Of a stretch of 64,000 bases of DNA, positions 1,567-26,804 are shown in pieces; within the stretch, counting starts at the first letter, position 1, and each line of letters opens with the position of its first letter. The notes under the pieces are model-generated. The model worked only from the letters and a program-made list of their open reading frames with translations, had not been told where the DNA came from and did no database searches. This stretch comes from an uncultured Alphaproteobacteria bacterium (GTDB taxonomy: Bacteria; Pseudomonadota; Alphaproteobacteria; Micavibrionales; UBA1664): the NCBI GenBank assembly GCA_943789475.1, contig CALSUG010000003.1, forward strand, positions 124,001 to 188,000. Direction: 5' to 3'. The translations under genes were made by a program, and so were the position numbers.

Positions 1567-2121
1567 TTATTTTTCGTCCTTTTTGTCCATGAAAAATCCA
1601 TGAACGAGTAATAATACAACACCTATACTAATCGCACTATCCGCAATGTTAAAGGCCGGCCAATGATATGTCCCCACATAAACATCAAAAAAATCAGCCA
1701 CAGCACCAAATCTAAAACGATCAATCACATTTCCAATGGCACCACCAATAATCATCCCCAACGATATTGCTTCTAACTTTGATGTCGATTTTATCAACCA
1801 TCGCATCATAATCATACAAATAATTCCTGCCAGAATAACAAGAGGCCATATGCCCATATTTTGTAACAACCCAAAACTAACCCCATGGTTCCAAACCATC
1901 GTCATATTGAAATTAGGTAACACAGGTACACTAATGAAGCCTAATTTCTCTGGTGCGCCCATAATCCATTCCAACAAACCAACAGATTCACCGGCATCAA
2001 GCGCAGGGCGCAACAACAATTCAATCGCCGCCCACTTGGATACTTGATCCAAAATCACAACGTCCAAGATAATTCCAAAACCCAAAATAAGGGGTAACTT
2101 ATTCATTCTATGCTCTTTCAT
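1567..2121 (-). CDS. lspA: Lipoprotein signal peptidase (signal peptidase II)
   Basis: 184 residues, close to the usual 160-185. Four membrane segments are evident. The two catalytic aspartates lie in the conserved blocks GNVIDRFRFGAVADF and FNIADSAISIG, and NHGVSFG matches the conserved N-terminal-half loop. The enzyme cuts prolipoproteins before the lipidated cysteine in the inner membrane. Its start codon overlaps the stop of the preceding M50/HlyD gene (TAATG), indicating translational coupling. This is unusual: lspA normally follows ileS, whereas here it is the fifth gene of an export-type operon. A second ATG five codons in (MNKLPLIL) is a possible alternative start. Confidence 0.96.
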   Translation of the reverse strand: MKEHRMNKLPLILGFGIILDVVILDQVSKWAAIELLLRPALDAGESVGLLEWIMGAPEKLGFISVPVLPNFNMTMVWNHGVSFGLLQNMGIWPLVILAGIICMIMMRWLIKSTSKLEAISLGMIIGGAIGNVIDRFRFGAVADFFDVYVGTYHWPAFNIADSAISIGVVLLLVHGFFMDKKDEK

Positions 2122-4232
2122 TAGTTGAAGCTTAATTCACGTCGTATAGTGTGAAAAGCATCTTTTATAAATTTTAAGGCCGCACTTTGCGCGGGCACAT
2201 TAATTTTAACCGTCCCACCCACAATATAAGGATAACCTTTATTATAATTATCCTTATCCAATTGCAATATCACTTTATAAATTGAATTAATTGATTTTAT
2301 TTGTCCTTCATCTTGTTGCGATGGAATTTGTCCACCATGTAACGATGATAAAACTTCAAAATCTAATATTTCATCATTAATCTCCTCATACGACAAAATT
2401 GAGGCATCTATACCGCCATACAATGTCTGCGCAGATCGAAAAATCGCCTTTTCGCCCTCCTTCAGGCGCTTCAAATCCTCTTCACCGACGTAAGCCGTAA
2501 TACGAAAATCGTGTGGTGTAATAACCCGCATTATATGATCTCTCACCCCAATGGCCTGCCCAACGGACAACCCATTATTGATATCAACGACTTGCCCATC
2601 GAAATTAGCATGCACAACCATAGTATTCGCCTTGGCCCTCAACCCATTCAATGTTTTAGATACCGTTTCAATATCAACATCAATGGAGGTTTGCCGACCA
2701 CGATATAAATCAGCGTTTGTTTGCTCACGCCTTTTTTGTAATTCTAATCCACGCAATGTCATTGTTTGTTTTTTAATTTCTGCATCTAAAAACACAGATG
2801 ACAAAACAACCAAAACATCACCCTTTTTAACGATTTGTCCTTGAATAACCTTCACGGCCTCTATTTTCGATGGTGATGGCGCAAATACGGATTGATATTC
2901 TTGTGCGTGCATCACCGCTGGCGCATGGACAACACCGCGCCACGGAATAACAAACGCCAATAGGGCAATTCCTAGCAATCCTGCAAATATTCGAAATCTT
3001 GTTTTATCCATAAAATTTTCTCGTTTATCCCACCACTTATTTATTTCATCCCAAATAGGCAATCCTATAAACCAAACCAACTCGAATATCATTGCGAATA
3101 ATCCCAATGGCTTCATAAATACATGATACACCAATATTGCAATCCCTAAAAATAATGACAATCGATATAACATTATAATCAGACCAAAGATCGTTAATTT
3201 TGTAGCAACAGTTGGTTCATAATCATGTGGTGCCCCTTCATTCCACCCCAAACATGTTCGACGAATAAATGCCCGCGCGTAATCAATTGCCACTGCATGT
3301 AAATTTTCTATCCCCGAATAATCACTAAGCACATAATACCCATCAAACCGCATTAATGGATTTAAGTTAATGAATAACGACCCAACAAGTGAAATCATGA
3401 TGATTGTGAAACATATCATTTGCCCCAATCCAGGCATCATAAAATTCCACAATATCAAGGCAATGGTTGCCAAATATAATTCTGACTGAATACCCGCCAA
3501 TCCAATGCGCATACGTGCCCGACGATCACCCAGCCGCCATGCCCCTGTGACCTCAGTATAAAACACAGGATACAGGACAATAAAAGCAACCCCCATATGG
3601 GGCACAGGCACATTATATATCTTAGCCATAAACCCATGTGCGAATTCATGAATGAATTTTATACATGTCAAAATAATTGCACTTAATATAATTCCTTCCG
3701 CAGAAAAAATCATCGTAAAGCTATTAAAAAATTCTTCTGACCTTGGCAATGTCATGACAATACCAACAAGCAATATTGTCATCATCACTACAAAAAAACT
3801 TTTTTCAAGCAACGGTCGAACATAAGGCAACATTCGTTTTAAAAAAGCATCCGGCCGAATAAGAGGTATCGTAAAATACAAATACCCATGCATCATTTTT
3901 TGCCAAATTGATTTTGATTTTGTCTCAGCCATCATTTGTTGCGTACCCGCAAGCAAACCATTCTCGGATAAAAACATGAGCAACGAAACAAGATCATCCT
4001 CATCAACACTTAATGATGTTTCAGCATTCACCATATCAATTAATTGATCACGATTATCGACTTTGTGAAACCGTGATAACAATTCAAATTCCGCCCAACC
4101 GATTTTAAAATATTGGTTAGAAGTTGGATGATATAATGTCCATTGGGGCGCACCATCACCACTTGCCGCCGAAGGATATAGTTTCAACAACGGATTTAGT
4201 GTTGGAAATATTTCACCATCACCGTCCATCAT
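2121..4232 (-). CDS. Site-2-type M50 protease fused to HlyD-like adaptor, with PqqD-like N-terminus
   Basis: 703 residues. Residues about 25-98 resemble a PqqD-like winged helix (YFKIGWAEFELLSRF, then a helical stretch ending NGLLAG), a fold that binds leader peptides in other systems. Residues about 140-400 form a multi-spanning membrane domain with the M50 zinc motif HEFAH at 195-199 and the second-ligand motif NPLMRFDGYY at 291-300. After a last membrane segment near 415-435, a biotinyl-lipoyl/HlyD-type periplasmic region with a hairpin follows (FAPSPSKIEAVKVIQGQIVKKGDVL is split across it). The gene abuts the GAF/HlyD gene upstream and overlaps lspA downstream. Zinc ligands look intact, so protease activity is plausible. 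The function is not known; context suggests a tripartite exporter in which this protein is the inner-membrane part. Confidence 0.8.
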   Translation of the reverse strand: MMDGDGEIFPTLNPLLKLYPSAASGDGAPQWTLYHPTSNQYFKIGWAEFELLSRFHKVDNRDQLIDMVNAETSLSVDEDDLVSLLMFLSENGLLAGTQQMMAETKSKSIWQKMMHGYLYFTIPLIRPDAFLKRMLPYVRPLLEKSFFVVMMTILLVGIVMTLPRSEEFFNSFTMIFSAEGIILSAIILTCIKFIHEFAHGFMAKIYNVPVPHMGVAFIVLYPVFYTEVTGAWRLGDRRARMRIGLAGIQSELYLATIALILWNFMMPGLGQMICFTIIMISLVGSLFINLNPLMRFDGYYVLSDYSGIENLHAVAIDYARAFIRRTCLGWNEGAPHDYEPTVATKLTIFGLIIMLYRLSLFLGIAILVYHVFMKPLGLFAMIFELVWFIGLPIWDEINKWWDKRENFMDKTRFRIFAGLLGIALLAFVIPWRGVVHAPAVMHAQEYQSVFAPSPSKIEAVKVIQGQIVKKGDVLVVLSSVFLDAEIKKQTMTLRGLELQKRREQTNADLYRGRQTSIDVDIETVSKTLNGLRAKANTMVVHANFDGQVVDINNGLSVGQAIGVRDHIMRVITPHDFRITAYVGEEDLKRLKEGEKAIFRSAQTLYGGIDASILSYEEINDEILDFEVLSSLHGGQIPSQQDEGQIKSINSIYKVILQLDKDNYNKGYPYIVGGTVKINVPAQSAALKFIKDAFHTIRRELSFN

Positions 4233-5522
4233 TTAAAAACCTGCTAAATTTCTTAATGCAATTAATGGTTTTCTAAACAAGGAATAGCCAAATATAGACC
4301 AGCTTGATTTAATTTTAGCTGTTCCTTGCCATCCAATTCTTAAGTTTAACTTTTCATTATATTGCGCCCGAATTTTATAGGTCAACAAACCATCAACATC
4401 CATCGATGCTTCATAGCCAATTGCAGAAATTTTTGCGTCATAGTTTTTCAACGGTTCTTGATTAAGGAAAAAAGCGACGTCGGTCCCGACACTAATTGGC
4501 AATAAAGATTGTGCCGGTATACGAACGAGCAATTCTACATTTTTAGGATCTGCGATCATCATTATTTTTTCACCTGTTGCCAGCGCCTTTCCCTTTAACG
4601 CGCTTGCATCTGAAAATACGGCAACACCATCGACTGGCGTAATGATTGATGTTTTATTTAATAAATTTTGTGCGTATTTTTTTTCAACTTTCAACACATC
4701 AATCTCAGATCTCAGCTTTTGTAAGTCTGCTTTTTTTTCTCCACTGCCTAGAGATTCAAACCCCGTACGTGACAACGATGATTGTGCAGCGATAACCTTT
4801 TGATTCGCACGGTCAAAATCTGATTGTAATTGCGTTTTGTCCATTTCCGCCAATTTTTGTCCGACAACCACATAATCACCTGGGCGAACGACCACATCAT
4901 CAATTACACCATCAAATGGTATGGATATCGTTATTGCCTGCGATGCGACAACCTCAACAGGGGCAGTCATACTTAACTGGACGGGGCAAAAAAATGTAAC
5001 AATCAACGCAACGATCGTTAATTTTTTAAATTTACCGCCACCAAATAATGATACATAGGATGATCGTGATTTACGAAGAGTAATATTATCCAACGATTGT
5101 TCGTAACATTCACGGACTTCTTGCAACAAACTCAATTCTTCATCGGAAAATTCTTTGTCACTCTCAATCCAAAGACCACCAACAACATGACCGTCATGTG
5201 TTTTAAAAATCATTAAATATTGTGCTTTTGCTCCCCACTCAACGCCATCATCATGACCTATCATTTGGATAAGATCAGATGATTTTTTATGCTTTTTTAT
5301 AAGATTTTTAAGCCATAATGCATAGGGACCAGACTTATCAATATTAACCGACCCTGAGGCTGTTTTTAAATCAATGTCGGGGCCATCACATGTCCAAAAA
5401 ATAGCTTGTTTATATGCAATCAAATCATGTGTTTTATTGGCAATAACAAAACCTATATCTTCGACCGATTGTGCGTCACGCGCTTGTTTTTGAAGGCCAA
5501 GAAGGAATGCTATTTTATTCAT
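4233..5522 (-). CDS. HlyD-family adaptor with N-terminal GAF-like domain
   Basis: 429 residues. The first ~145 residues are cytoplasmic and look like a GAF domain (VEDIGFVIANKTHDLI at the start, VVGGLWIESDKEFSDEEL near the end). One membrane segment follows at about 170-188 (LTIVALIVTFFCPVQLS), then a HlyD/RND-adaptor periplasmic region: lipoyl half-motif (PFDGVIDDVVVRPGDYV), a short coiled-coil hairpin, and the second lipoyl half (ITPVDGVAVF). The stop codon directly abuts the ATG of the M50 fusion gene. A sensory-type domain on the cytoplasmic side of an export adaptor is unusual; it may bind a ligand or a substrate. Family call is solid, role inferred. Confidence 0.8.
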   Translation of the reverse strand: MNKIAFLLGLQKQARDAQSVEDIGFVIANKTHDLIAYKQAIFWTCDGPDIDLKTASGSVNIDKSGPYALWLKNLIKKHKKSSDLIQMIGHDDGVEWGAKAQYLMIFKTHDGHVVGGLWIESDKEFSDEELSLLQEVRECYEQSLDNITLRKSRSSYVSLFGGGKFKKLTIVALIVTFFCPVQLSMTAPVEVVASQAITISIPFDGVIDDVVVRPGDYVVVGQKLAEMDKTQLQSDFDRANQKVIAAQSSLSRTGFESLGSGEKKADLQKLRSEIDVLKVEKKYAQNLLNKTSIITPVDGVAVFSDASALKGKALATGEKIMMIADPKNVELLVRIPAQSLLPISVGTDVAFFLNQEPLKNYDAKISAIGYEASMDVDGLLTYKIRAQYNEKLNLRIGWQGTAKIKSSWSIFGYSLFRKPLIALRNLAGF

Positions 5523-5525
5523 AAA

Positions 5526-6776
5526 TTAATGCGCCTGCGCTTCAAGAAAACCTGATATGCCCGCCTCTCTTATCTTACCAATATGCACTTGTGCTTGCCC
5601 GCTCATTCCTGGCAAAAGAGGCTCATCATAATTGTCCAACTGTGCACGAACTTGTATGGATTGACTTACCGGATCAACCTCACCGTAAATACGCGTTACA
5701 ACCGCCGTATAATCACGCCCCGTTTCCGTTAGTGCTAAATTCAATGGCGCACCCACATTAACCCAACGCAACCATATTGATGGCAACAAAAATTCCATAT
5801 CCAACGCACCTTCGGATACAACCTCCATCAATACGCGATCTGTCCGTGTATATTCACTGGCATTCGCCATTTTTTTAACAACACGGCCATTATAATCCGC
5901 CTTAATAACACAATCTTTCAAACGTGATTCCATCGCACGTTGTTTTGCCGTTGATTGCTTGTTCTCAACAGATGATTGTAATTTTTCCAAATGCGAGGCC
6001 AGTTCTAAATCAAATAAACGCGATGTTGTCAGTTGTTTTTGACGGGCAAATCGTTTTTCAGAATGTACCGCGTCCCATTCCGCGCGCAGATCATCACAAT
6101 GATATTCCAACAGCACATCACCCTTTTTAAAACGATCACCATTTTCAAAATAAATTGCCTTTAATTTTCCATCACGGCTACTCGAAACAACTGTTTTTTC
6201 GCGCGGCACTAAAACAGCCTCAACATCAAGAATCATTTGATCCACCTCGAACTCACCTTTCATCGCCGGAGGCATGTCATAATCACCACCAACCGCAGGT
6301 TCAATATTATTAAATGCTACTGCCATGGAATCACGATTTGCATCATTCATCATTGTTGAATTATTTGCCACTTGAATAAGGCGCACCTTCTCCACCTTAC
6401 CGTCAAATAACGATGATACATTGCTAACAATGTCATTTACATTTTCTTGTATCTCCAAATATCCAGATGTAGCAAAATCAACAACTGAACTTTGCCCCTG
6501 ATCTATTGTGTCTACCAAGTAATCATATCCATCCGCCACTGCGTTATGCATCACATCATAGCGATCAACAATTTTATCACCGACATCATGTTTTGTGTTT
6601 TCCAATGTCTTTATCGCACTGGAACCAGCATCCACTATCCCCACGTTCATGCGATAGTGCGTGTCTTGTAATTCACTCAAAACAGCCTCAACACGTTCAG
6701 GATAGAAATAATGAGCAGCGAAACTACCACCTGTCAATAATACAAGGCAAACCAATGAAATATATATTTTCATCAT
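5526..6776 (-). CDS. HlyD-type periplasmic adaptor protein
   Basis: 416 residues. An N-terminal hydrophobic segment (LVCLVLLTGGSFAAHYF) acts as signal or membrane anchor. Residues about 30-130 form an atypical polar helical region, after which comes the lipoyl/hairpin/lipoyl arrangement of membrane-fusion proteins: VVSSSRDGKLKAIYFENGD, a short hairpin, then VIKADYNGRVVKKM, and a beta-barrel region ending near PLLPGMSGQAQVHIGK. The ATG overlaps the stop of the TolC-like gene by four bases (ATGA) and the next gene starts 3 bases downstream. It presumably bridges the inner-membrane parts to the TolC-like channel. Confidence 0.85.
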   Translation of the reverse strand: MMKIYISLVCLVLLTGGSFAAHYFYPERVEAVLSELQDTHYRMNVGIVDAGSSAIKTLENTKHDVGDKIVDRYDVMHNAVADGYDYLVDTIDQGQSSVVDFATSGYLEIQENVNDIVSNVSSLFDGKVEKVRLIQVANNSTMMNDANRDSMAVAFNNIEPAVGGDYDMPPAMKGEFEVDQMILDVEAVLVPREKTVVSSSRDGKLKAIYFENGDRFKKGDVLLEYHCDDLRAEWDAVHSEKRFARQKQLTTSRLFDLELASHLEKLQSSVENKQSTAKQRAMESRLKDCVIKADYNGRVVKKMANASEYTRTDRVLMEVVSEGALDMEFLLPSIWLRWVNVGAPLNLALTETGRDYTAVVTRIYGEVDPVSQSIQVRAQLDNYDEPLLPGMSGQAQVHIGKIREAGISGFLEAQAH

Positions 6777-8230
6777 ATTTCTACCTCACTATCAAATGGT
6801 GACAAACCAAGCGTACCCATCATATCCATATATGCCTGTTGCATTTGCGCATAGGCTTGAAATTTTTCAACCTCTTGTGATACAGCACCCGCCCGTGCCA
6901 TAAATTCAGCAAAACCTGACGTTGCGCCCAATCCTTTTTTAATCGCCTCAGCATAAGCCTGTCGTTTTGCTTGCTTTTCTTGAATAACAGTTGATTTATA
7001 ATTTTCCTCAGCCATCGCAATACGCACTTGCCCAATGTGCACCTGCGCCATGATCGCAGCTGTCAACGCCTGACGTCTTACCTCACCTAAATATTCTTTA
7101 TTTTTTGATGCCTGGTATCGCGAAGGAAGTGAAATAAAATCACTTATGCTTTGTGTAATAGCACCTGAAAGATTAGACCATGTGTGTGTGTCTAAAAATT
7201 TATTACTGTCATAATTTTGAGCATAAACAAGATTCAACCCAGGAAACGTCTTAACAATTTCACGTTGTGTCTGTCGCACAGCCTGATTTTTCTTTAAAAA
7301 CTCTTCTCGAATTTCAGATCTATTTTGAAGAGCTATACTGATTAATTTTTCTATTTTTTTATTATCATTTGATATTTTAAATTTATCTTTTACGTCCTCA
7401 GGGCGTGTTACAAGTGCAATATTTTGAGATAATGGAACTGCGGTGATCGCCTTTAATTCCAACTCAGTTAAAGAAAGACTTTCACGCATCTCATTAATTT
7501 TTTTAACACGGTCTTGAATATCAACAATACGGCTTGTTACATCAGACAATCCTAACAAACGCTCCCTATCTGCGACGTTAATTGATTTTTCAAATTTTTG
7601 AGCATCTTCTAACAGTTGTCCTGTATGATCCTGCCCTTGCTGTCCAGCATATGCCTGCCAATAAGCATTAAAAACATCTCGCTGTATATTTTGCCTTACT
7701 TTCTCAACACGTTCTGATGCTATATCCGCCTGCTCGCTTGCTGTTTTTCCATCAAGATATGCAATAACACTATCCAAAATATTCCACTGCGCTTGCAGAT
7801 CAAAAAGGCGGCGCGCCTTTTCCGACGAAGTTGACGGTTCCAGTGATTGTGTTCCTGTTAAAATGGATTCACTGGATGAGGCGGCATTATTATTGCGACG
7901 TGTAAAAGTTCCGGAAGCCTTAAAATTTGGCATTCCTTCAAATTGAGTAAGCGTTACATTATCTTGCGCCATGATGGTTTCAAGTGCCGCGACATGGCCA
8001 TCAAGGTTCAATTCAAGCGCCCTCTCCACAGCTTGATCAAGCGTAAGATAAAGAGTATTAACAGCGATTAAAGGTGAGTGATTTTCAAGAATTTCACGAT
8101 CTTTTTCAATTTGTGAAAGATGCACAGGACCATCAAGCTCGATCGCATCGCGTGACGCACATCCAGTTAAAAAAAACCCACAAACAAGCGGTATTGCAAC
8201 CGCTTTTGCTGACAACCTTATATCTTTCAT
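6773..8230 (-). CDS. TolC-like outer-membrane efflux lipoprotein
   Basis: 485 residues. A signal peptide ends in a lipobox LTGC (Cys24). The remainder is rich in long amphipathic helices, with the TolC-family opening LYLTLDQAVERALELNLD and an internal second repeat beginning near residue 290 (SIALQNRSEIREEFLKKNQAVRQ). The length is typical. It is the first gene of the minus-strand run that continues through two adaptors and the M50 fusion into lspA. No ABC, MFS or RND pump lies in the run. It is the outer-membrane exit of whatever this system exports. Confidence 0.88.
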   Translation of the reverse strand: MKDIRLSAKAVAIPLVCGFFLTGCASRDAIELDGPVHLSQIEKDREILENHSPLIAVNTLYLTLDQAVERALELNLDGHVAALETIMAQDNVTLTQFEGMPNFKASGTFTRRNNNAASSSESILTGTQSLEPSTSSEKARRLFDLQAQWNILDSVIAYLDGKTASEQADIASERVEKVRQNIQRDVFNAYWQAYAGQQGQDHTGQLLEDAQKFEKSINVADRERLLGLSDVTSRIVDIQDRVKKINEMRESLSLTELELKAITAVPLSQNIALVTRPEDVKDKFKISNDNKKIEKLISIALQNRSEIREEFLKKNQAVRQTQREIVKTFPGLNLVYAQNYDSNKFLDTHTWSNLSGAITQSISDFISLPSRYQASKNKEYLGEVRRQALTAAIMAQVHIGQVRIAMAEENYKSTVIQEKQAKRQAYAEAIKKGLGATSGFAEFMARAGAVSQEVEKFQAYAQMQQAYMDMMGTLGLSPFDSEVEI

Positions 8231-8344: not shown

Positions 8345-9334
8345 ATGACAGTTTTACCTGAAATTCTCAACCTCAAACAACAAGTAATGAAATCCATCAT
8401 TGGGCAAGAAGAGATTGTTGATCATTTAATGCTCAGCATGCTTTCGAATGGCCATTTACTTATCGAAGGTTTGCCCGGTCTCGCAAAAACACGTGCCATT
8501 AAATCACTGGCCGACAACATGGAATGTGATTTTAAACGCATTCAATTTGCGCCCGACCTCACATCCGCTGACATCACCGGCCGTGAAACATTATTCACGC
8601 ACGAAGATGGCAAACATAGTTATAAATTTGAACCCGGCCCTGTTTTTGGAAACCTCGTTCTTGCTGATGAAGTCAACCGTGCACCTGCAAAGGCTCAGTC
8701 TTGTATTTTAGAAGCGATGGAAGAACGCCAAGTCACCGTTGCTGCAGTCGGGCATAAATTACCTAAATTATTCATGGTGATGGCCACAATGAATCCCGTT
8801 GAACAACATGGAACAAACCCCATGGCCGAAGCTCAATTAGATCGTTTTATGATGCACGTTATTGTTGACTATCCTGATGAGGAAAGTGAAGTTAAGGTTC
8901 TGCGTCTTGTTCGAGGAGAGGAAGAAACCATTGTCAGTAATGATAAAGCAAAAAAAGAAGGAAAGAAAAAAGTTACGCAAGAAACAATTTTCACTGCGCG
9001 ATCCGAAATCGACAAAATTACGATTTCACCACAAATGGAGCGTTATATCATCGATATTGTTTTTGCAACACGCTATCCCGAGCGATACAGCTATCAATTA
9101 AAATCATGTATCAAAACAGGCGTCAGCCCCCGTGGCTCACTTGCGATTGATCGCGCTGCACGCTCCCACGCATGGTTTACAGGAAACACAGAAGTTCAAC
9201 CGAAAAACATTCACGGAATTTTACATTCGTGCCTACGTCACAGAATTCCAATTCCTGATGAAGCAAAAAAAGACAATGTTACATCGGATGTTGTTATTGA
9301 CGAACTTCTAAACGTTGTCAAAATTCCAGAATAG
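8345..9334 (+). CDS. MoxR-family AAA+ ATPase (orphan)
   Basis: 329 residues, the usual length for MoxR proteins. Walker A is GLPGLAKT at residues 42-49, Walker B LVLADEV at about 104-110, sensor 1 lies in MVMATMNPVEQHGT, and a lid region follows (SPRGSLAIDRAARSHAW). MoxR ATPases are chaperone-like and usually sit next to DUF58 and VWA-domain genes that they activate. Here neither partner is present: upstream is the divergent export operon and downstream the convergent flgL, whose stop codon abuts this one. A charged insertion (about residues 195-215, KAKKEGKKKVTQE) interrupts the region between ATPase core and lid. Function in this setting is unknown. Confidence 0.93.
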   Translation: MTVLPEILNLKQQVMKSIIGQEEIVDHLMLSMLSNGHLLIEGLPGLAKTRAIKSLADNMECDFKRIQFAPDLTSADITGRETLFTHEDGKHSYKFEPGPVFGNLVLADEVNRAPAKAQSCILEAMEERQVTVAAVGHKLPKLFMVMATMNPVEQHGTNPMAEAQLDRFMMHVIVDYPDEESEVKVLRLVRGEEETIVSNDKAKKEGKKKVTQETIFTARSEIDKITISPQMERYIIDIVFATRYPERYSYQLKSCIKTGVSPRGSLAIDRAARSHAWFTGNTEVQPKNIHGILHSCLRHRIPIPDEAKKDNVTSDVVIDELLNVVKIPE

Positions 9335-14759: not shown

Positions 14760-17168
14760 ATGACAACGATCACAGGAACATTGGCAAACGACACACTCAT
14801 CGGAACAGGCGACAATTCAGAAATAATCTACGCCCTTGACGGTGATGATATCATCTATACAGGTTGGGGAAATGGAAGCCATATTTACGGTGGAAATGGT
14901 GATGATCGTATCATAGCAAGCACAAATATTAACAACTATCCAGAGAGCGTCAAAAGTAAATTTTACGGAGGTGATGGAAGTGATACATATGTGTTTAATG
15001 CAAATTCTATGGCGATAAATATCCTAGAAGACGAAATCACAAGTGGTACAGACACAGTGGAATTTGGAGCAGGAATAACCCTGTCAGACTTAATGATACA
15101 AGGAAATGCAGGGTCTGATTTAGGAATTTGGTACTCAAATTTTTTACAAGATTTTGTAGAGGGGGCCGATATAGTCATAGATGACCAGGCCTTATCAACA
15201 CGTGTTGAAAAAATAACGTTTGATAACGGGGAAACATACACTCTCAGTTTTGGTAATAGTTTCGAGTTTCCCGCTTTTTCAGGAGATATGCATAATGTAA
15301 CAGCAAATAATAACGACAACGAAGTTTACCTAGCGAAAGGGTATTATAATTTTCATGCTGGTGCTGGTAATGATATTATTCATGGGACAGATGATCGGAA
15401 TCACGCCGGTGGCGGTTACGGTCAAAGAGATTTTGTTTTCGGAGAAGATGGTGACGACATAATCTACGGTTATGGTGGTGGTGACAACCTACATGGTGGT
15501 AACGGCAACGATATTTTAGATGCCGGCACAGGATACGATAGTAGTAGCAATCTGTATGGCGGCAACGGCAACGATCTCCTTATTAGTGGCGATTTTTCTG
15601 GAGGAGGATATGGAAGCAACATGGACGGTGGTGATGGTGATGACATCTTGCATATCAGAAGCTATAGCGCTTCCGCTGCAGGTGGTAACGGATCTGATGA
15701 ACTACATGTTAAACATATGATACCAGATGAACATTTAGCTGCTAACTCTTACATTAACATGTTCGGTGGAGCTGGAAATGATGTTTACATTTACAACCGC
15801 GATGATGCAAATGACGCAATATCACGCAAAGCCGAGATAAGAGATGATGCAGGAAGTTATGACACCATTTTTTTAGATGGTGATTTCAACATAACAACAA
15901 CAGCAAATAATTTTGCTATTACTGAGCTACATCCAACGAGCCCCTCCTCACCATATTATATGATTGGAATAAATGATAATTTTGCCGGAAACGTGATTGA
16001 ACGTGTTGTCTTTTCAGATGGATCCATTTATTCGTATGGTACATCTAGAGTTCTGTCTCAAATCGTTGCGACATCAGGTAACGATACAATTTACCTATCT
16101 GCGTGGCATGATGAATTTTATGCCCTTGGTGGTGATGATACGATTTATGCGTTGGAACGCGATGATATCGTCGATGGCGGGTCGGGTAATGACACATTAT
16201 ATGGTGAACATGGTAATGACACCCTAATCGGTGGTTCTGGGAACGACATTCTTGATGGTGGTATTGGTAACGATACGATCAGTTATGCTTCTGCATCCGC
16301 CGCAGTTGTTGTAAAATTGGGCAGTAATTTCACATTTGATGATGGTGATGGTGGAACAGACACATTGTCATCCATTGAAAATATAACTGGATCTGCATTC
16401 AATGACGACCTGCGTGGAACCAATGACGTCAACATTATCCATGGAGGTAATGGCGATGACAATATCTATGGTTATTTCGGCGATGACGAATTATACGGTG
16501 GTGCGGGTGACGACTTCCTTACAGGTGCCGAAGATAACGACACATTATATGGTGAAGATGGCGCCGACGAATTATGGGGCGGTTTAGGTGACGATACACT
16601 CCATGGGGGCGATGGTGATGATGCTAAACTAGATGGTGGATCGGGTAACGACACTATTTACGGTGATGCAGGGAACGATACGCTCTATGGTCGCGCAGGA
16701 AATGACACATTAAACGGTGGTGATGGTGACGATGTTTTCTATGGTGAAGACGGCAATGACATTATTGATGGTGGTGATGGACAAGACTTTATCCTTGCCG
16801 GCGCAGGTGACGACATATTAAATGGTGGTTTAGGTTATGATCGTTTATATGGAGGAACAGGTGCAGATACGTTTGTCTTTACGGATTATTCTCAATATAC
16901 AAGCATCTATGATCGCGTGCATGATTTTAACGCCGCAGATGGTGATGTCTTAGATATCTCTGATTTGATCTCCGCTTATGACCCACTAACGGAAAGCATA
17001 GGTGATTATGTCTGGGTCGATCAAAATGCCGCACGTTCATATATTTATATTGACAATGATGGGGCGGGCACGAATGCATCGATGGAATATGCAATCCGTA
17101 TGGAAGGGGTATTTTGGGACAATTCAGACCTCGCTACACTTATCACAGACGGAACCATGATTATCTAA
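14760..17168 (+). CDS. RTX calcium-binding repeat protein, type I secretion substrate
   Basis: 802 residues with no N-terminal signal peptide. It opens with a short RTX block (GTLANDTLIGTGD), has further nonapeptide blocks around residues 30-60 and 200-310, and a long continuous array at about 440-700 of the form GGxGxDxL (for example YGGAGDDFLTG, LNGGDGDDVFYGEDGND). The array ends in GGTGADTFVF and a DVLDISDLI segment, the arrangement of the type I secretion C-terminal target region. The nonapeptides bind calcium after export. No enzymatic domain is recognised in the ~300 non-repeat residues. A Shine-Dalgarno GGGAGAA precedes the ATG. The gene lies between the flgD operon and the flagellin gene, and a type I exporter is encoded 5 kb downstream, its likely route. 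Confidence 0.9.
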   Translation: MTTITGTLANDTLIGTGDNSEIIYALDGDDIIYTGWGNGSHIYGGNGDDRIIASTNINNYPESVKSKFYGGDGSDTYVFNANSMAINILEDEITSGTDTVEFGAGITLSDLMIQGNAGSDLGIWYSNFLQDFVEGADIVIDDQALSTRVEKITFDNGETYTLSFGNSFEFPAFSGDMHNVTANNNDNEVYLAKGYYNFHAGAGNDIIHGTDDRNHAGGGYGQRDFVFGEDGDDIIYGYGGGDNLHGGNGNDILDAGTGYDSSSNLYGGNGNDLLISGDFSGGGYGSNMDGGDGDDILHIRSYSASAAGGNGSDELHVKHMIPDEHLAANSYINMFGGAGNDVYIYNRDDANDAISRKAEIRDDAGSYDTIFLDGDFNITTTANNFAITELHPTSPSSPYYMIGINDNFAGNVIERVVFSDGSIYSYGTSRVLSQIVATSGNDTIYLSAWHDEFYALGGDDTIYALERDDIVDGGSGNDTLYGEHGNDTLIGGSGNDILDGGIGNDTISYASASAAVVVKLGSNFTFDDGDGGTDTLSSIENITGSAFNDDLRGTNDVNIIHGGNGDDNIYGYFGDDELYGGAGDDFLTGAEDNDTLYGEDGADELWGGLGDDTLHGGDGDDAKLDGGSGNDTIYGDAGNDTLYGRAGNDTLNGGDGDDVFYGEDGNDIIDGGDGQDFILAGAGDDILNGGLGYDRLYGGTGADTFVFTDYSQYTSIYDRVHDFNAADGDVLDISDLISAYDPLTESIGDYVWVDQNAARSYIYIDNDGAGTNASMEYAIRMEGVFWDNSDLATLITDGTMII

Positions 17169-21922: not shown

Positions 21923-22006
21923 ACCAAGTCTATCCTAATGCTTGCCGTAATTATGCGAAGCATATAACATTTTGAATTATATTCATTGCAAGGGTTCACC
22001 TGTTTT

Positions 22007-23368
22007 ATGCTTCACCTATTACGTTTATTATCAATTTCAAGCGCACTTACACTGATGAGTGGTGTTTCTACACAAGCAGAAACACTCGATGAAGCTATTG
22101 CAAAAGCAGTAAAAAATCATCCGGCTATTATGGCTGTTATGGCAAATGAAACAGCATCAAAGGAAGATGTAAATCAAGAAAAATCATACTACTACCCTAC
22201 AGCAAGCGCCTCAGCCAGCTTTGGTCGCATTTATGCGGATAACACAACAACGCGCGGATTAACCGTGTCACGTGGCGCTGGGTATTCTTGGTTTGGTGAA
22301 GGATCTGGATCACTGTCTCAAAAATTATACGATTTCAATGCAACACGTTATAGTATAAACGCTGCAAAAGCCCGCCACCAATCTGCTGGCGCAAATCTTG
22401 ATGCACAAATATTATCTATTGGATTACAAGCTGCACAAGCTTACTTACAGCTGTTGCGTGCTCAGGACTTATTAAACATTGCCAATGAAAACAAAAAAGA
22501 TATCGAATCCTATTACAACCGCATCAAAACCGCATTTGATAACGACGGTGCAGATGAATCAGAAGTTTCGCGTGCCCAAGACTTCTTATCGTTATCCAAG
22601 AATATGGTTTTGCAATATCAATCTGATCTTAAAATCGCAGAAGCTGGATATAAAGAAGTCATAGGTAACAGGCCACAACAGAAATTAAAACAACCTTCTA
22701 TTGATTTATCGGCGACACCTAAAACGTTAGATGAGGCTATCAGTATAGCACTCACAAGACATCCACAAATCAACTCATCTGCATTAGAGGTCAAAGCGAC
22801 TACACAAGATCTTCAACGTGAAAAAACATCTATATACCCTGAGTTGAATGCAGAACTGTCTTATCTAGAAAAAGATCAAAAAGATATTATTGGGGGAGAG
22901 TCTTCCGATGGTCGAGCCCTTATCCGTATGAATTGGGATTATTCATTAGGTGGTACGGAAACAGCCGCGAAACGACGGGCTGCAGCCTTACAACAAGAGG
23001 CTGAATTCAACCTAACAGCACTTAATCGTGTTATAGAACGTGATGTTGAAATTGCATGGCACTCACTAAATCTTGCGCGAAAAAAGAAAAATAACGAAGC
23101 TGATCGTCTAGATGCTGCAAAAAAAACATTAGCAACATACAAAGAACAGTATGAGGGATCACAACGATCTATCCTCGACTTAATGACCGTGAAAAATAGC
23201 TACTTTACTGCACAACAAGATTATTTAAATGTCACATTACAAGAAATGAACGCGGTTTATACATTAATGAATGCGATGGGAACTAAATTCTACAAATCAA
23301 ATGATATTGTTGCTACCAAACATTATTCAACCTCCGGCGTTAAAGTTTCAAAACCAATAAAGGAATAG
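22007..23368 (+). CDS. TolC-family outer-membrane protein of type I secretion (LapE-like)
   Basis: 453 residues from the ATG at 22007; an in-frame TTG at 21986 is less likely. Signal peptide cleaved near STQAE, then the family opening TLDEAIAKAVKNHPAI. Two repeats of long helices are seen, the second opening with TLDEAISIALTRHPQI. It differs from the TolC-like lipoprotein at 6.8-8.2 kb by lacking a lipobox and by its clear two-repeat symmetry. It precedes the ABC and adaptor genes of the same exporter with a 6-base gap. Confidence 0.9.
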   Translation: MLHLLRLLSISSALTLMSGVSTQAETLDEAIAKAVKNHPAIMAVMANETASKEDVNQEKSYYYPTASASASFGRIYADNTTTRGLTVSRGAGYSWFGEGSGSLSQKLYDFNATRYSINAAKARHQSAGANLDAQILSIGLQAAQAYLQLLRAQDLLNIANENKKDIESYYNRIKTAFDNDGADESEVSRAQDFLSLSKNMVLQYQSDLKIAEAGYKEVIGNRPQQKLKQPSIDLSATPKTLDEAISIALTRHPQINSSALEVKATTQDLQREKTSIYPELNAELSYLEKDQKDIIGGESSDGRALIRMNWDYSLGGTETAAKRRAAALQQEAEFNLTALNRVIERDVEIAWHSLNLARKKKNNEADRLDAAKKTLATYKEQYEGSQRSILDLMTVKNSYFTAQQDYLNVTLQEMNAVYTLMNAMGTKFYKSNDIVATKHYSTSGVKVSKPIKE

Positions 23369-23374
23369 TGTGCC

Positions 23375-25477
23375 ATGACAAAAGAGAACGTTGCGACAAC
23401 TGATCCACTTCTCCAGTGCTTGGTGCATTTAACGGCTCATTATGGTCAGGCTCAATCTAGTGAATCACTAACCTCCAATTTAGCTTATACCGATAAAGGT
23501 ATGGATATTCCTTTATTTCAACAGGCTGCGCTAAATGCACGCCTACGTACAAAACTCGATAAGCGTGATTTAAAATCAATTACATCTGAACTATGCCCTG
23601 TTGTTGTAATATTGAAAGGAAATGAAGATGTTGTTCTTCACGATATTACTGATGGCAAAGTGAGTGTTTATCGTCCATCGGAAAACAAAAAACGAACCCT
23701 CAAACTAGAAACGTTAGAGGCGGAATACACGGGATATACCTTACTCATCCATAAATTCAGTGAACGTCGAGCACAAGAAAGACATTGGTTTTGGAGCATT
23801 GTTCGCAATAATCGCCCCATATATCGAAAAGTCGCCATTGCAGCTGTTTTAATCAATCTATTTGGACTCGTTAGCCCCCTTTTCATCATGAATGTTTATG
23901 ATCGCGTTATTCCAAACAACGCATTCGAAACGGGTTGGGTTTTGGCGATTGCCGCGCTCACCATTTTTGGATTTGATTTTATTATTCGAACATTACGCGG
24001 ATATTTCATCGACCTTGCAGGGCGTAAAATTGACGTGATTGTTGGGCGTCGTATTTACGATCATTTGCTCAATATGAAACTCGCGCATAAACCACAAAGC
24101 AGTGGCGCATTCGCAAATATGATCCGTGAATTTGAAGGTATTAAAGAGTTTTGTACCTCGGCCACATTAACCGCTATTATCGATTTACCATTTGCTCTAC
24201 TGTTTATTTTCGCTATTTATCTGTTAGCGGGAAATATAGCGCTCATTTTACTAGCGATCATGGTAATCGTGACTATCATTGGGTACGCCCTACAATTTCC
24301 ACTCAAAAAATTAGTACGTGAAGCAATGCAGTCAGCCGAAGCAAAACACGGATTATTGATTGAAACAATTAACGGTCTTGAAACAATAAAATTGACTCGC
24401 GCAGATGGACAAATGCGATCTAAATACGAGGCACATCTTGGTGATTCTGCAACAGTTTCACAAACATCACGCTTTTTCTCATCCATGGCTGTTAATTTTG
24501 CTACACTATTTCAACAATCCGCATCGATCATTGTTGTCTTATTCGGCATGTATATGGTCGAAGATGGTACTCTAACCATGGGTGCCCTAATTGCCGCGGT
24601 TATTATGGGCGGAAAGGCTATTGCACCCATTGGACAAATCGCTGCATTGGTCACAAAATTTCATACAGTAAAAGGATCGCTCAACACACTAAATGCACTA
24701 ATGGCCGCGCCCGTTGAACGTCCAGAGGGCAAACGTTTTTTAAACCGTCCTGACCTAAAAGGTGACATTGCACTCGATCGTGTCTCATTCACGTACCCAA
24801 ATGATCAACGTAAAATTCTGGATGGTATTTCATTGTCAATTACGGCTGGTGAAAAGGTAGGAATAGTCGGGCGTATTGGTTCAGGGAAAAGCACATTAAC
24901 CAAGATTATCGCAGGATTATATGATGCCACCGAAGGTGATGTATTTGTTGATGGGACGGACACAAGACAAATTGATCCAGCCGATCTCCGCAAAACAATC
25001 GGTTATGTGGCACAGGAAACAATTCTTTTCCGCGGTTCTGTTCGCGACAATATCATCACAGGGAATCCCCAAGCCACCGACGAAGAAATACTAAATGCCG
25101 CAAAAAAATCAGGTGTACATGATTTTATTGCACGCCATCCGATGGGATATGATGCACCTGTAGGCGAACGTGGCGATGGATTGTCAGGCGGTCAAAAGCA
25201 ATGTGTTTCACTGGCACGTGCCTTTGTCACAAATCCAAAAATCATTCTCGCAGATGAACCAACAAACGATATGGATACTCAGGCAGAAGAGCAATTTATC
25301 AACCATATGCAAGGATTATCACAAGACAAAACATTGATCTTGATTACACACAGACAAAGCCTGTTAAAATTAGTTGATCGCCTAATCATTATCGATCAAG
25401 GAAAACTTGTGGCTGATGGTCCCCGTGACAAAGTGATCGCAGCAATTAATGGAGATGGAGGTTCCTCTGATGAATAA
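23375..25477 (+). CDS. Type I secretion ABC transporter (LapB/LssB-like)
   Basis: 700 residues. Residues about 1-140 are a C39-like domain without the catalytic cysteine, as is typical for exporters of RTX and large adhesins that are not cleaved during export. Five to six membrane segments span about 150-420. The ATPase has Walker A GRIGSGKST (499-507), signature LSGGQ (603-607) and Walker B IILADEP (623-629). The ATG follows AAGGAA. Length and order (outer-membrane protein, ABC, adaptor) match the LapEBC class. Likely cargo: the RTX protein at 14.8 kb and the FecR/cadherin protein at 29-31.9 kb. Confidence 0.94.
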   Translation: MTKENVATTDPLLQCLVHLTAHYGQAQSSESLTSNLAYTDKGMDIPLFQQAALNARLRTKLDKRDLKSITSELCPVVVILKGNEDVVLHDITDGKVSVYRPSENKKRTLKLETLEAEYTGYTLLIHKFSERRAQERHWFWSIVRNNRPIYRKVAIAAVLINLFGLVSPLFIMNVYDRVIPNNAFETGWVLAIAALTIFGFDFIIRTLRGYFIDLAGRKIDVIVGRRIYDHLLNMKLAHKPQSSGAFANMIREFEGIKEFCTSATLTAIIDLPFALLFIFAIYLLAGNIALILLAIMVIVTIIGYALQFPLKKLVREAMQSAEAKHGLLIETINGLETIKLTRADGQMRSKYEAHLGDSATVSQTSRFFSSMAVNFATLFQQSASIIVVLFGMYMVEDGTLTMGALIAAVIMGGKAIAPIGQIAALVTKFHTVKGSLNTLNALMAAPVERPEGKRFLNRPDLKGDIALDRVSFTYPNDQRKILDGISLSITAGEKVGIVGRIGSGKSTLTKIIAGLYDATEGDVFVDGTDTRQIDPADLRKTIGYVAQETILFRGSVRDNIITGNPQATDEEILNAAKKSGVHDFIARHPMGYDAPVGERGDGLSGGQKQCVSLARAFVTNPKIILADEPTNDMDTQAEEQFINHMQGLSQDKTLILITHRQSLLKLVDRLIIIDQGKLVADGPRDKVIAAINGDGGSSDE

Positions 25478-26804
25478 TTCAGAAGAAGAAAAAAAGACAA
25501 CCGATCTCGATTTTATGAGCGACATTAATGCAGCAACACGCCTGCAACCATCTTGGCAAGCAAACATTTTACTTTATGTTATTTGCGCGCTCTTCATCTT
25601 TATTGTTGTTTGGGCAAACATCGCAAAATTAGAAGTTATCACACGGGGTGAAGGAAAAGTTGTTCCAACCAGCGAAATCCAACTGGTTCAATCATTGGAG
25701 GGTGGAATACTAGCCGAATTAAACATCAGTGAAGGTGACAAAGTTGAAAAAGGGCAGATATTAGCCCGCATTGAAAATGTTGCCTTCGCATCAGAAGAAC
25801 GCGGTATTGAGGCACAATCACTCGCCCTAACATTAAAACAATCACGTCTCAATGCCGAAAGTGAAGATCGTAAATTCACAATCACCGATGATCTAAAATT
25901 ACAAAATATGACATTGGCAAATAATGAGATCGCCCTCTATCAATCGCGTCAAAATGGACTGCAAAAATCATTGGCCGTGGCCGATGAAATTGTGAATAAA
26001 AACGAAGCCAATTTAAAAGAAATTGATGCCACAATTAAACGCCTGCGTGATTCAAAAAATTTGCTATCACAACAATTAAAAATTACGCGTAATTTGGTCG
26101 CAAAAAATGCAATGCCAAAATTAGAAGCATTAAAACAAGAACGTGAATTTTCAGAAATTTCAGGAAATTTAAATGCATCTATCCAGCGTAAAAAGGCATT
26201 ACAGGCCGACCTTGCCGCGGCAAAAAACACACGTGAGGAAACAAAGGCAAAATTCAAATCCGAGGCATTAACTGAATTAAGTCAGGTTGAAACGCAATTA
26301 GCAGGATTAAAAGAATCCCTCACCGCCGCGGGTGATCGCGTTGACCGTACCGAATTACGTGCACCTGCCGCTGGTGTCGTCAAAACAATTAATCAAAAAA
26401 CAATTGGCGGTGTTGTCGATCCCTCAATGAAATTAATTGAAATTGTTCCATTGGATGATGATTTAAAAATAACGGCAAAAATTTTACCTGCCGACATCGC
26501 ATTTTTAAAAATTAACCAAGATGTGAATGTCAAAATCACGGCCTATGACTCATCAAAATTTGGTGCATTGCGCGGAAAATTAAAACGCATCAGCGCCGAT
26601 ACGATAGAAGATAAAGAAGGCAATATCTTTTTTGAAATTGATGTGATCACCGATAAAAATTATCTAGGTTCACAAGATGCGCCGCTGCCTATTATTCCAG
26701 GTATGATCGCCGAAACCGAAATCATCACCGGCAAACGTACCGTTATGTATTACCTTGCCAAACCTTTCCTTCGTGCGCGTGATCGCGCAATGACGGAACA
26801 ATAA
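25470..26804 (+). CDS. Type I secretion HlyD-family adaptor (LapC-like)
   Basis: 444 residues from the ATG at 25470, which has GGAGG 8 bases upstream and overlaps the end of the ABC gene by 8 bases; an in-frame ATG at 25449 lacks such a site. One membrane segment at about 31-52 (ILLYVICALFIFIVVW), lipoyl half EGGILAELNISEGDKVEKGQ, a long coiled-coil hairpin (about 85-275), second lipoyl half RAPAAGVVKTI, and a C-terminal beta domain ending PGMIAETEIITGKRTVMYYL, the HlyD family signature. It connects the ABC transporter to the outer-membrane channel. Confidence 0.94.
   Translation: MNNSEEEKKTTDLDFMSDINAATRLQPSWQANILLYVICALFIFIVVWANIAKLEVITRGEGKVVPTSEIQLVQSLEGGILAELNISEGDKVEKGQILARIENVAFASEERGIEAQSLALTLKQSRLNAESEDRKFTITDDLKLQNMTLANNEIALYQSRQNGLQKSLAVADEIVNKNEANLKEIDATIKRLRDSKNLLSQQLKITRNLVAKNAMPKLEALKQEREFSEISGNLNASIQRKKALQADLAAAKNTREETKAKFKSEALTELSQVETQLAGLKESLTAAGDRVDRTELRAPAAGVVKTINQKTIGGVVDPSMKLIEIVPLDDDLKITAKILPADIAFLKINQDVNVKITAYDSSKFGALRGKLKRISADTIEDKEGNIFFEIDVITDKNYLGSQDAPLPIIPGMIAETEIITGKRTVMYYLAKPFLRARDRAMTEQ

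Follow-up and report, generated by a model that had tools for sequence, protein, structure and literature searches.

A pump-less TolC, adaptor and M50 gene set as a candidate export machine for giant proteins with an N-terminal tag

The DNA analysed here, referred to as the window, is a stretch of 64,000 nucleotides from an uncultured alphaproteobacterium of the Micavibrionales (UBA1664; assembly GCA_943789475.1, contig CALSUG010000003.1, positions 124,001 to 188,000), whose genome is assembled to 1.97 Mb in 9 contigs. On the minus strand of the window, at 2121-8230, lies a run of four open reading frames (ORFs). In the order of the run they encode a TolC-like outer-membrane factor, a HlyD-type periplasmic adaptor, a second adaptor with a GAF domain (GAF-HlyD) and a protein in which a PqqD-like domain, an M50 protease core and a third adaptor domain are joined, hereafter the fusion (Table 1). 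The junctions along the run are a 4-base overlap, a 3-base gap and a direct abutment. No pump gene is found within the run in the ORF list or by Pfam. The composition proposed by an earlier, sequence-only reading of the window, four genes and no pump, thus agrees with the ORFs and Pfam. We suggest that this set probably processes and exports giant repeat proteins that carry a short tag at the N-terminus.

Table 1. Features of the four-gene set and of the type 1 secretion genes in the window
Feature	Position in window	Strand	Basis or remark
TolC-like outer-membrane factor, putative lipoprotein, 485 aa	6773-8230	-	Pfam OEP 54.5 bits
HlyD/RND-type periplasmic adaptor, 416 aa	5526-6776	-	Pfam HlyD_D23 57.9 bits; NCBIfam RND_mfp 103 bits (cut-off 94.9)
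GAF-HlyD protein, 429 aa: GAF domain, membrane helix, periplasmic adaptor	4233-5522	-	Pfam; predicted structure (AlphaFold2) and its structural matches
GAF domain, about residues 1-160 of GAF-HlyD	5043-5522	-	AlphaFold2 model and structural matches
MacA-like adaptor domain of GAF-HlyD, residues 174-412	4287-5003	-	3fpp_B: Z 16.8, rmsd 5.3, 233 aligned
PqqD-M50-HlyD fusion protein, 703 aa	2121-4232	-	
PqqD-like winged-helix domain, fusion residues 29-94	3951-4148	-	profile-profile alignment (hhalign)
M50 site-2-protease membrane core, fusion residues 128-392	3057-3851	-	SpoIVFB 8vjl_A: Z 10.8, rmsd 5.0, 169 aligned
HEFAH zinc-binding motif, fusion residues 195-199	3636-3650	-	H, E, H invariant in 39/39
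NPLMRFDG motif, third zinc ligand D297	3339-3362	-	D297 invariant in 39/39
Periplasmic adaptor domain fused to M50, about residues 432-685	2178-2939	-	MacA 9qgy_G: Z 16.8, rmsd 8.2, 220 aligned
Complete type 1 set, OEP-ABC(C39-like)-HlyD	21986-26804	+	~14 kb from four-gene run
RTX-repeat protein with T1SS C-terminal domain (TIGR03661)	14760-17168	+	

The TolC-like protein has a lipobox-like LTGC near its N-terminus, as judged by eye, and the Pfam families HlyD_D23/HlyD_3 are found in the 416-, 429- and 703-aa proteins. The M50 gene overlaps at its end, by one base, with a lipoprotein signal peptidase gene (1567-2121, minus strand); the nearest relative has a 248-aa ORF at this place, which the LspA of the window does not match.

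The models of the two composite proteins are of high predicted quality, with a mean pLDDT of 90.4 for GAF-HlyD and 87.3 for the fusion. The GAF-like domain first proposed from the sequence is confirmed by its structural matches, with Z of about 16 (3mf0_A, Z 16.6, rmsd 2.7, 151 aligned; 3ci6_B, Z 15.6, rmsd 2.8, 146 aligned). The PqqD-like domain at the N-terminus of the fusion, also part of the sequence-only reading, is borne out by a profile-profile alignment with 25 genome-derived PqqD domains (probability 94.6%, E 7e-8, 64 columns). Ten segments of 110 columns served as controls: nine stay at or below 1.3%, and 89.9% is reached by the one that overlaps the N-terminus. We note that PqqD is listed neither by Pfam for the window's fusion at E≤1, nor among the Pfam families of 12 fusion relatives at E≤0.1, nor among the PDB sequence matches or the whole-model fold matches, a list filled by adaptors that leaves the N-terminus uncovered.

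Peptidase_M50 is recognised by Pfam in the 703-aa protein at 29.3 bits and in the six-frame search of the genome at 24.1 bits, above and below the cut-off of 27.2, respectively. The protease core resembles the site-2 protease SpoIVFB in its fold and in its HExxH and NPxxRFDG-type zinc site, and differs from it by the PqqD domain in front and the adaptor domain behind. The sequence-only reading depended on conservation of this site, and it is conserved: H195, E196, H199 and D297 are invariant in 12 aligned sequences as well as in the 39 of Table 1, and both zinc motifs are intact in 80/80 named homologues, described below.

PqqD is a leader-binding fold, and its presence in the fusion fits a model drawn from the sequence-only reading, in which a small leader-bearing peptide would be cut and exported with the fusion in place of a pump, as in peptide-natural-product systems. 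Residues 33-388 also resemble the daptide intramembrane metalloprotease NF041824. However, the score of 159.5 bits is far below the family cut-off of 300, the fusion carries an adaptor domain, and its recurrent partner is a giant tagged protein, in surveys none of which was aimed at small ORFs. We therefore consider a small-peptide substrate very improbable.

This partner was found in the lineage set of 55 genomes, that of the window and its relatives, 13 of which carry a fusion gene beyond a lone adaptor match. Eight giant genes adjoin the set in seven of the 13 fusion-bearing genomes. They encode proteins of 964 to 2,589 aa, three of them running past the edge of the retrieved stretch, and each of the eight bears the tag LE[K/Q]RxxxDA close to its beginning. 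Cadherin-like repeats occur in all four giants scanned by Pfam, together with laminin-G-like domains in three. The tag has the versions LExRxxFDGA and, in the window's lineage, LExRxMLDAS, both relatives of the NCBIfam family LEPR-XLL (NF012209, LEPR-8K), which it resembles in its position and in the LExR core at the start of giant repeat proteins. NF012209 itself is listed for one of the four scanned giants at 13.8 bits, below the cut-off of 17, and matches none of the 55 lineage genomes at E≤0.001. Its 24-position model misses the lineage variant, and a lineage tag model was therefore built.

Of the 13 fusion-bearing genomes, 11 are strongly matched by the profile of the eight tags (E<1e-7), as against none of the 42 others, among which the best score is E 0.0098. 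Four of the 11 tag-positive genomes, the window's own included, lie outside the model and hold the giant on a different contig from the set. The giant of the window's genome (G000:C8:68042-75745, i.e. L076:8042-15745 on the plus strand) has 2,567 aa, with Cadherin_3 found in ten stretches and a C-type lectin domain scoring slightly below cut-off; no RTX repeats are found in it by Pfam at E≤0.001. Its tag scores 14.1 bits with NF012209 (cut-off 17) and E 2e-9 with the tag model A4, which represents the FDGA/LDAS form. On a crude hydropathy measure the tag does not read as a clear signal peptide: none of 60 reaches 2.0, and the own giant has 2.16. The C-termini of the giants are conserved among the window's relatives and, separately, among Pseudomonas and Pectobacterium; hhalign finds no match between the two profiles (probability 0.5%), and a C-terminal signal common to all taxa is not supported.

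The association of tag and fusion extends to a sample of 299 Pseudomonadota genomes, of which 55 hold the main form of the fusion (ten of them also a divergent form), 12 the divergent form only and 232 neither. At E≤0.005 model A4 matches 52/55, 0/12 and 1/232 of these groups, respectively. The giants of the three missed main-form genomes start with LELRFIFDGA, LEPRTLFDGA and LEPRLIFDGA. The lone fusion-negative match, G292, covers only model positions 13-27 in a 310-aa frame. LEPR-XLL, the matches of which read, e.g., LEPRLLLSAD, is found at E≤0.001 in 11/12 divergent-only genomes and at E≤0.0025 in 12/12, with 0/232 fusion-negative genomes at both thresholds. Taken together, either tag (A4 at 0.005 or LEPR-XLL at 0.0025) is present in 67/67 genomes with a fusion and in 1/232 without.

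Tag and fusion might merely travel together on large, plastic, adhesin-rich genomes and plasmids, with no joint function, and the patchy distribution and plasmid carriage speak for this. Against it stand the near-complete correspondence of either tag with the fusion, the correlation of their copy numbers (Spearman 0.78 in 55 genomes), the persistence of the association when the genes lie on different contigs and its recurrence across many families. In three families of mixed fusion status (f8, f16 and f47), counted by eye, A4 at 0.005 matches 3/4, 2/2 and 8/8 main-form genomes, and their sole fusion-negative match is again G292, in f16. We consider co-travel very improbable.

Named organisms give the same picture. 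The best 80 of 580 relatives of the fusion, mostly from Pseudomonas but also from Azospirillum, Nitrospira, Pectobacterium and others, were taken as named loci with flanks of up to 10 kb each. The gene set recurs there, with GAF-HlyD in 78/80, HlyD in 73/80 and a TolC-like gene in 33/80, many stretches stopping short of TolC. A tagged ORF lies within 10 kb of the fusion in 61 of the 80 (60 detected by ORF calls and 59 by a frame scan; two are shortened by contig ends), and 58 of the 59 frame-scan tags are on the strand of the fusion, 57 within 5 kb of it. The tag pattern occurs within the first 135 residues of 61 of 975 ORFs and nowhere in the remaining 345,158 residues. A looser first pattern also matched TolC-like proteins (ALKYNLEARLKVMEEA), which the tighter one excluded. 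Outside the window's relatives the lineage tag model ranks 51 of 52 tagged ORFs before the first untagged one, although only 25 have E≤0.05.

No ORF matching the two RND proteins of the window's genome (E≤1e-6) is found in the 80 named loci, MFS pumps being outside the scope of this search, and an ABC ORF is present in 19/80, always outside the gene set. Neither result that would have refuted the sequence-only reading, an ABC or RND gene beside most homologues or a zinc site that varies among them, was thus found. Small ORFs like 'tail fiber' proteins, which we take to be of the tail-collar type, stand beside the set in 42/80 named loci, e.g. L143:7704-9370. As seen by eye, sulfotransferase-like and membrane glycosyltransferase-like ORFs lie between the M50 gene and the giant in three Pseudomonas loci (L094, L107 and L133), with a GNAT acetyltransferase-like ORF also between them in the latter two.

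A relative of the fusion is also present in 51 plasmid records. A tagged giant, TolC, HlyD, GAF-HlyD and M50 stand in one row on plasmids of E. coli CX15 and Kosakonia cowanii and on the megaplasmid of Cupriavidus metallidurans CH34. In E. coli CX15 (L223, L226), whose plasmid is typed IncFIA/IncFIB/IncN, the giant that opens the five-gene row has 4,459 aa and the tag LESRQLFDGA; among 5,426 E. coli genomes, 24 hold a match to the M50-HlyD gene of this row, 22 of these over at least 80%. About 10 kb separates the M50 gene of Azospirillum B510 from its giant, TolC, HlyD and GAF-HlyD genes.

Hence, we suggest, with a probability of roughly two in three and on the strength of sequence comparisons, that the four genes form an envelope-spanning machine dedicated to the processing and export of N-terminally tagged giant repeat proteins. 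Three computed results carry this suggestion: the parts with their domains, the conservation of the zinc site and the co-occurrence of tag and fusion. Binding of the tag, its cutting, export and gating are what we infer from them.

In the proposed mechanism the PqqD domain of the fusion would bind the tag of the freshly synthesised giant in the cytoplasm. The position of the domain ahead of the first membrane helices suggests that it lies on the cytoplasmic face, and there it would be well suited to read an N-terminal tag. Next, the M50 core would take in the weakly hydrophobic stretch that follows LExR in the tag, a plausible entry for an intramembrane protease, and probably cut it there. The three adaptor domains (HlyD, GAF-HlyD and M50-HlyD) and the TolC-like lipoprotein would form the duct to the surface, and GAF may gate the complex.

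A more specific version of this mechanism, which we put forward tentatively and hold at somewhat below even odds, is a secretion route of its own kind: the LExR tag would be read by PqqD, and the chain would pass the M50-adaptor gate, be cut there and leave through TolC with no ABC, RND or MFS part, in two branches that differ in SecA and tag. At least two SecA matches are found in 9/12 genomes with the divergent fusion only and 8/10 with both forms, compared with 9/45 with the main form only and 1/232 with neither. Of the 12 stretches around divergent fusions, 9 have a SecA-like ORF close to the fusion, and one of the 80 named loci (L108) shows such an ORF. LEPR-XLL at E≤0.001 follows the extra SecA, being matched in 23/26 fusion-bearing genomes that have one versus 9/41 of the others. 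By this distribution of SecA and LEPR-XLL across the fusion forms, the fusions appear to fall into two branches, with the window in the one that lacks a SecA of its own: its genome has one SecA_DEAD match, in a 950-aa frame, and no secondary SecA. As a part of the same tentative proposal, the SecA-free branch would have the FDGA/LDAS tags, and the SecA branch the canonical LEPR-XLL tag. In a genome with no secondary SecA, the housekeeping Sec machinery or another motor would therefore have to serve. The MoxR gene (8345-9334) was considered as such a motor and dropped, no similar ORF being labelled in the 80 named loci or in the relatives' stretches.

Giant adhesin-type proteins are known substrates of type 1 secretion, and the main competitor of a dedicated machine is that the set is a station for processing, release or surface anchoring. 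A type 1 ABC system or Sec would then carry the giants across the envelope, leaving the M50, adaptors and TolC to trim, hold or release them at the tag; LapD/LapG-type control of other adhesins offers an analogy. The set itself has no motor, and a complete type 1 set, which the finding of the sequence-only reading does not mention, lies in the same window as an alternative export route. A type 1-like ABC exporter ORF (E≤1e-74) is found within 10 kb upstream of the set in 4/80 named loci, all in Pseudomonas (L119, L132, L136 and L145). In Vibrio a LEPR-XLL giant carries C-terminal RTX and serralysin domains, according to the accessible passages of PMC10868602.

On the other hand, the set has a TolC and three adaptor domains of its own, ABC ORFs are near only a minority of the named loci and outside the set, and the own giant has cadherin-type repeats and no RTX. 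The RTX-repeat protein with a T1SS domain is closer to the window's type 1 set and would be its likelier client. Flagellin, FliD and other genes separate this RTX protein from the type 1 set. Altogether we regard such a station as unlikely, though well ahead of the small-peptide and co-travel explanations.

Several further points weigh against a dedicated export machine. Co-occurrence of tag and fusion alone is not proof of transport, and no inner-membrane motor was found. The giant of the window's own genome is unlinked to the set, lying on another contig. The cut-offs for either tag were set after the scores had been seen; at E≤0.05 A4 matches 55/55 main-form, 1/12 divergent-only and 7/232 fusion-negative genomes, and the first fusion-negative LEPR-XLL match (G265, a 64-aa frame) has E 0.0027, just past the cut-off. 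At its curated cut-off LEPR-XLL is found in 64 genomes, which a count by hand splits into 53/67 fusion-positive and 11/232 fusion-negative. Moreover, the 299 genomes are not independent, some rows of A4 may come from among them, and at most three fusion copies per genome were scored.

Among the relatives, two of the 13 fusion-bearing genomes (G047 and G049) lack a detected tag, both being less than 80% complete. Of the named loci 19/80 have no tag; most are short or have the start of the giant off the edge, and two (L095 and L098) are whole 22-kb stretches. The annotated start of the Azospirillum B510 giant falls inside the tag region, and the neighbouring protein on the Magnetospirillum MSR-1 plasmid, of the ELWxxDGT kind and 492 aa long, shows no tag where its annotation begins. 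Hydropathy is unreliable as proof that a Sec signal is absent, for the collar-type proteins, taken as secreted, are also below 2.0.

The proposed machine is close to known systems and distinct from each. The accessible passages of Kamneva, Poudel and Ward 2015 (PMC4452313) describe a SecA_DEAD / type I-like module with Peptidase_M50, GAF/HlyD and HlyD/biotin-lipoyl proteins, sometimes OEP, and no ABC transporter. The M50-HlyD, GAF-HlyD, HlyD and OEP proteins of such a module stand together in the window. The 'undescribed' export system of the sequence-only reading therefore had a very similar precedent. The module is defined by a secondary SecA_DEAD protein, unlike the window's genome with its single SecA. 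Its authors proposed that the M50 proteins could form an inner-membrane pore and called the broader biological role of the module completely unknown, and none of the words PqqD, adhesin, cadherin, giant or LEPR appears in their main text.

Type 1 secretion and tripartite efflux, in the accessible passages of PMC8277102, likewise use an adaptor and a TolC-like duct. The window's set has both, a HlyD-type adaptor and a TolC-like factor, but contains no ABC motor; the PqqD-M50-adaptor fusion stands where the energised ABC, RND or MFS part would be. As for the substrates, the tags of the window's branch differ from canonical LEPR-XLL in reading LExRxMLDAS/LExRxxFDGA. The papers found for LEPR-XLL, LEPRxLL or DUF4347 mention LEPR-XLL or DUF4347 once each, in passing, with no link to the gene set in the passages seen.

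The pump-less set and the idea of an M50 pore are thus already in the accessible part of PMC4452313, and the new part is the substrate link between tag and set. In a search that took in no preprints and few subscription papers, neither this link nor a PqqD domain in the fusion nor a division into two branches turned up. No paper found assigns a dedicated export route to LEPR-XLL-type giants, and the module of 2015 came with no known role, two gaps that seem to fill each other. If the proposal is true, some of the largest surface-type proteins of bacteria, those on E. coli plasmids included, would have a defined signal, reader domain, protease and duct.

Elsewhere in the window, a 937-aa protein with FecR and cadherin domains is encoded at 29044-31857 on the minus strand, where it adjoins a CHASE2-cyclase gene.

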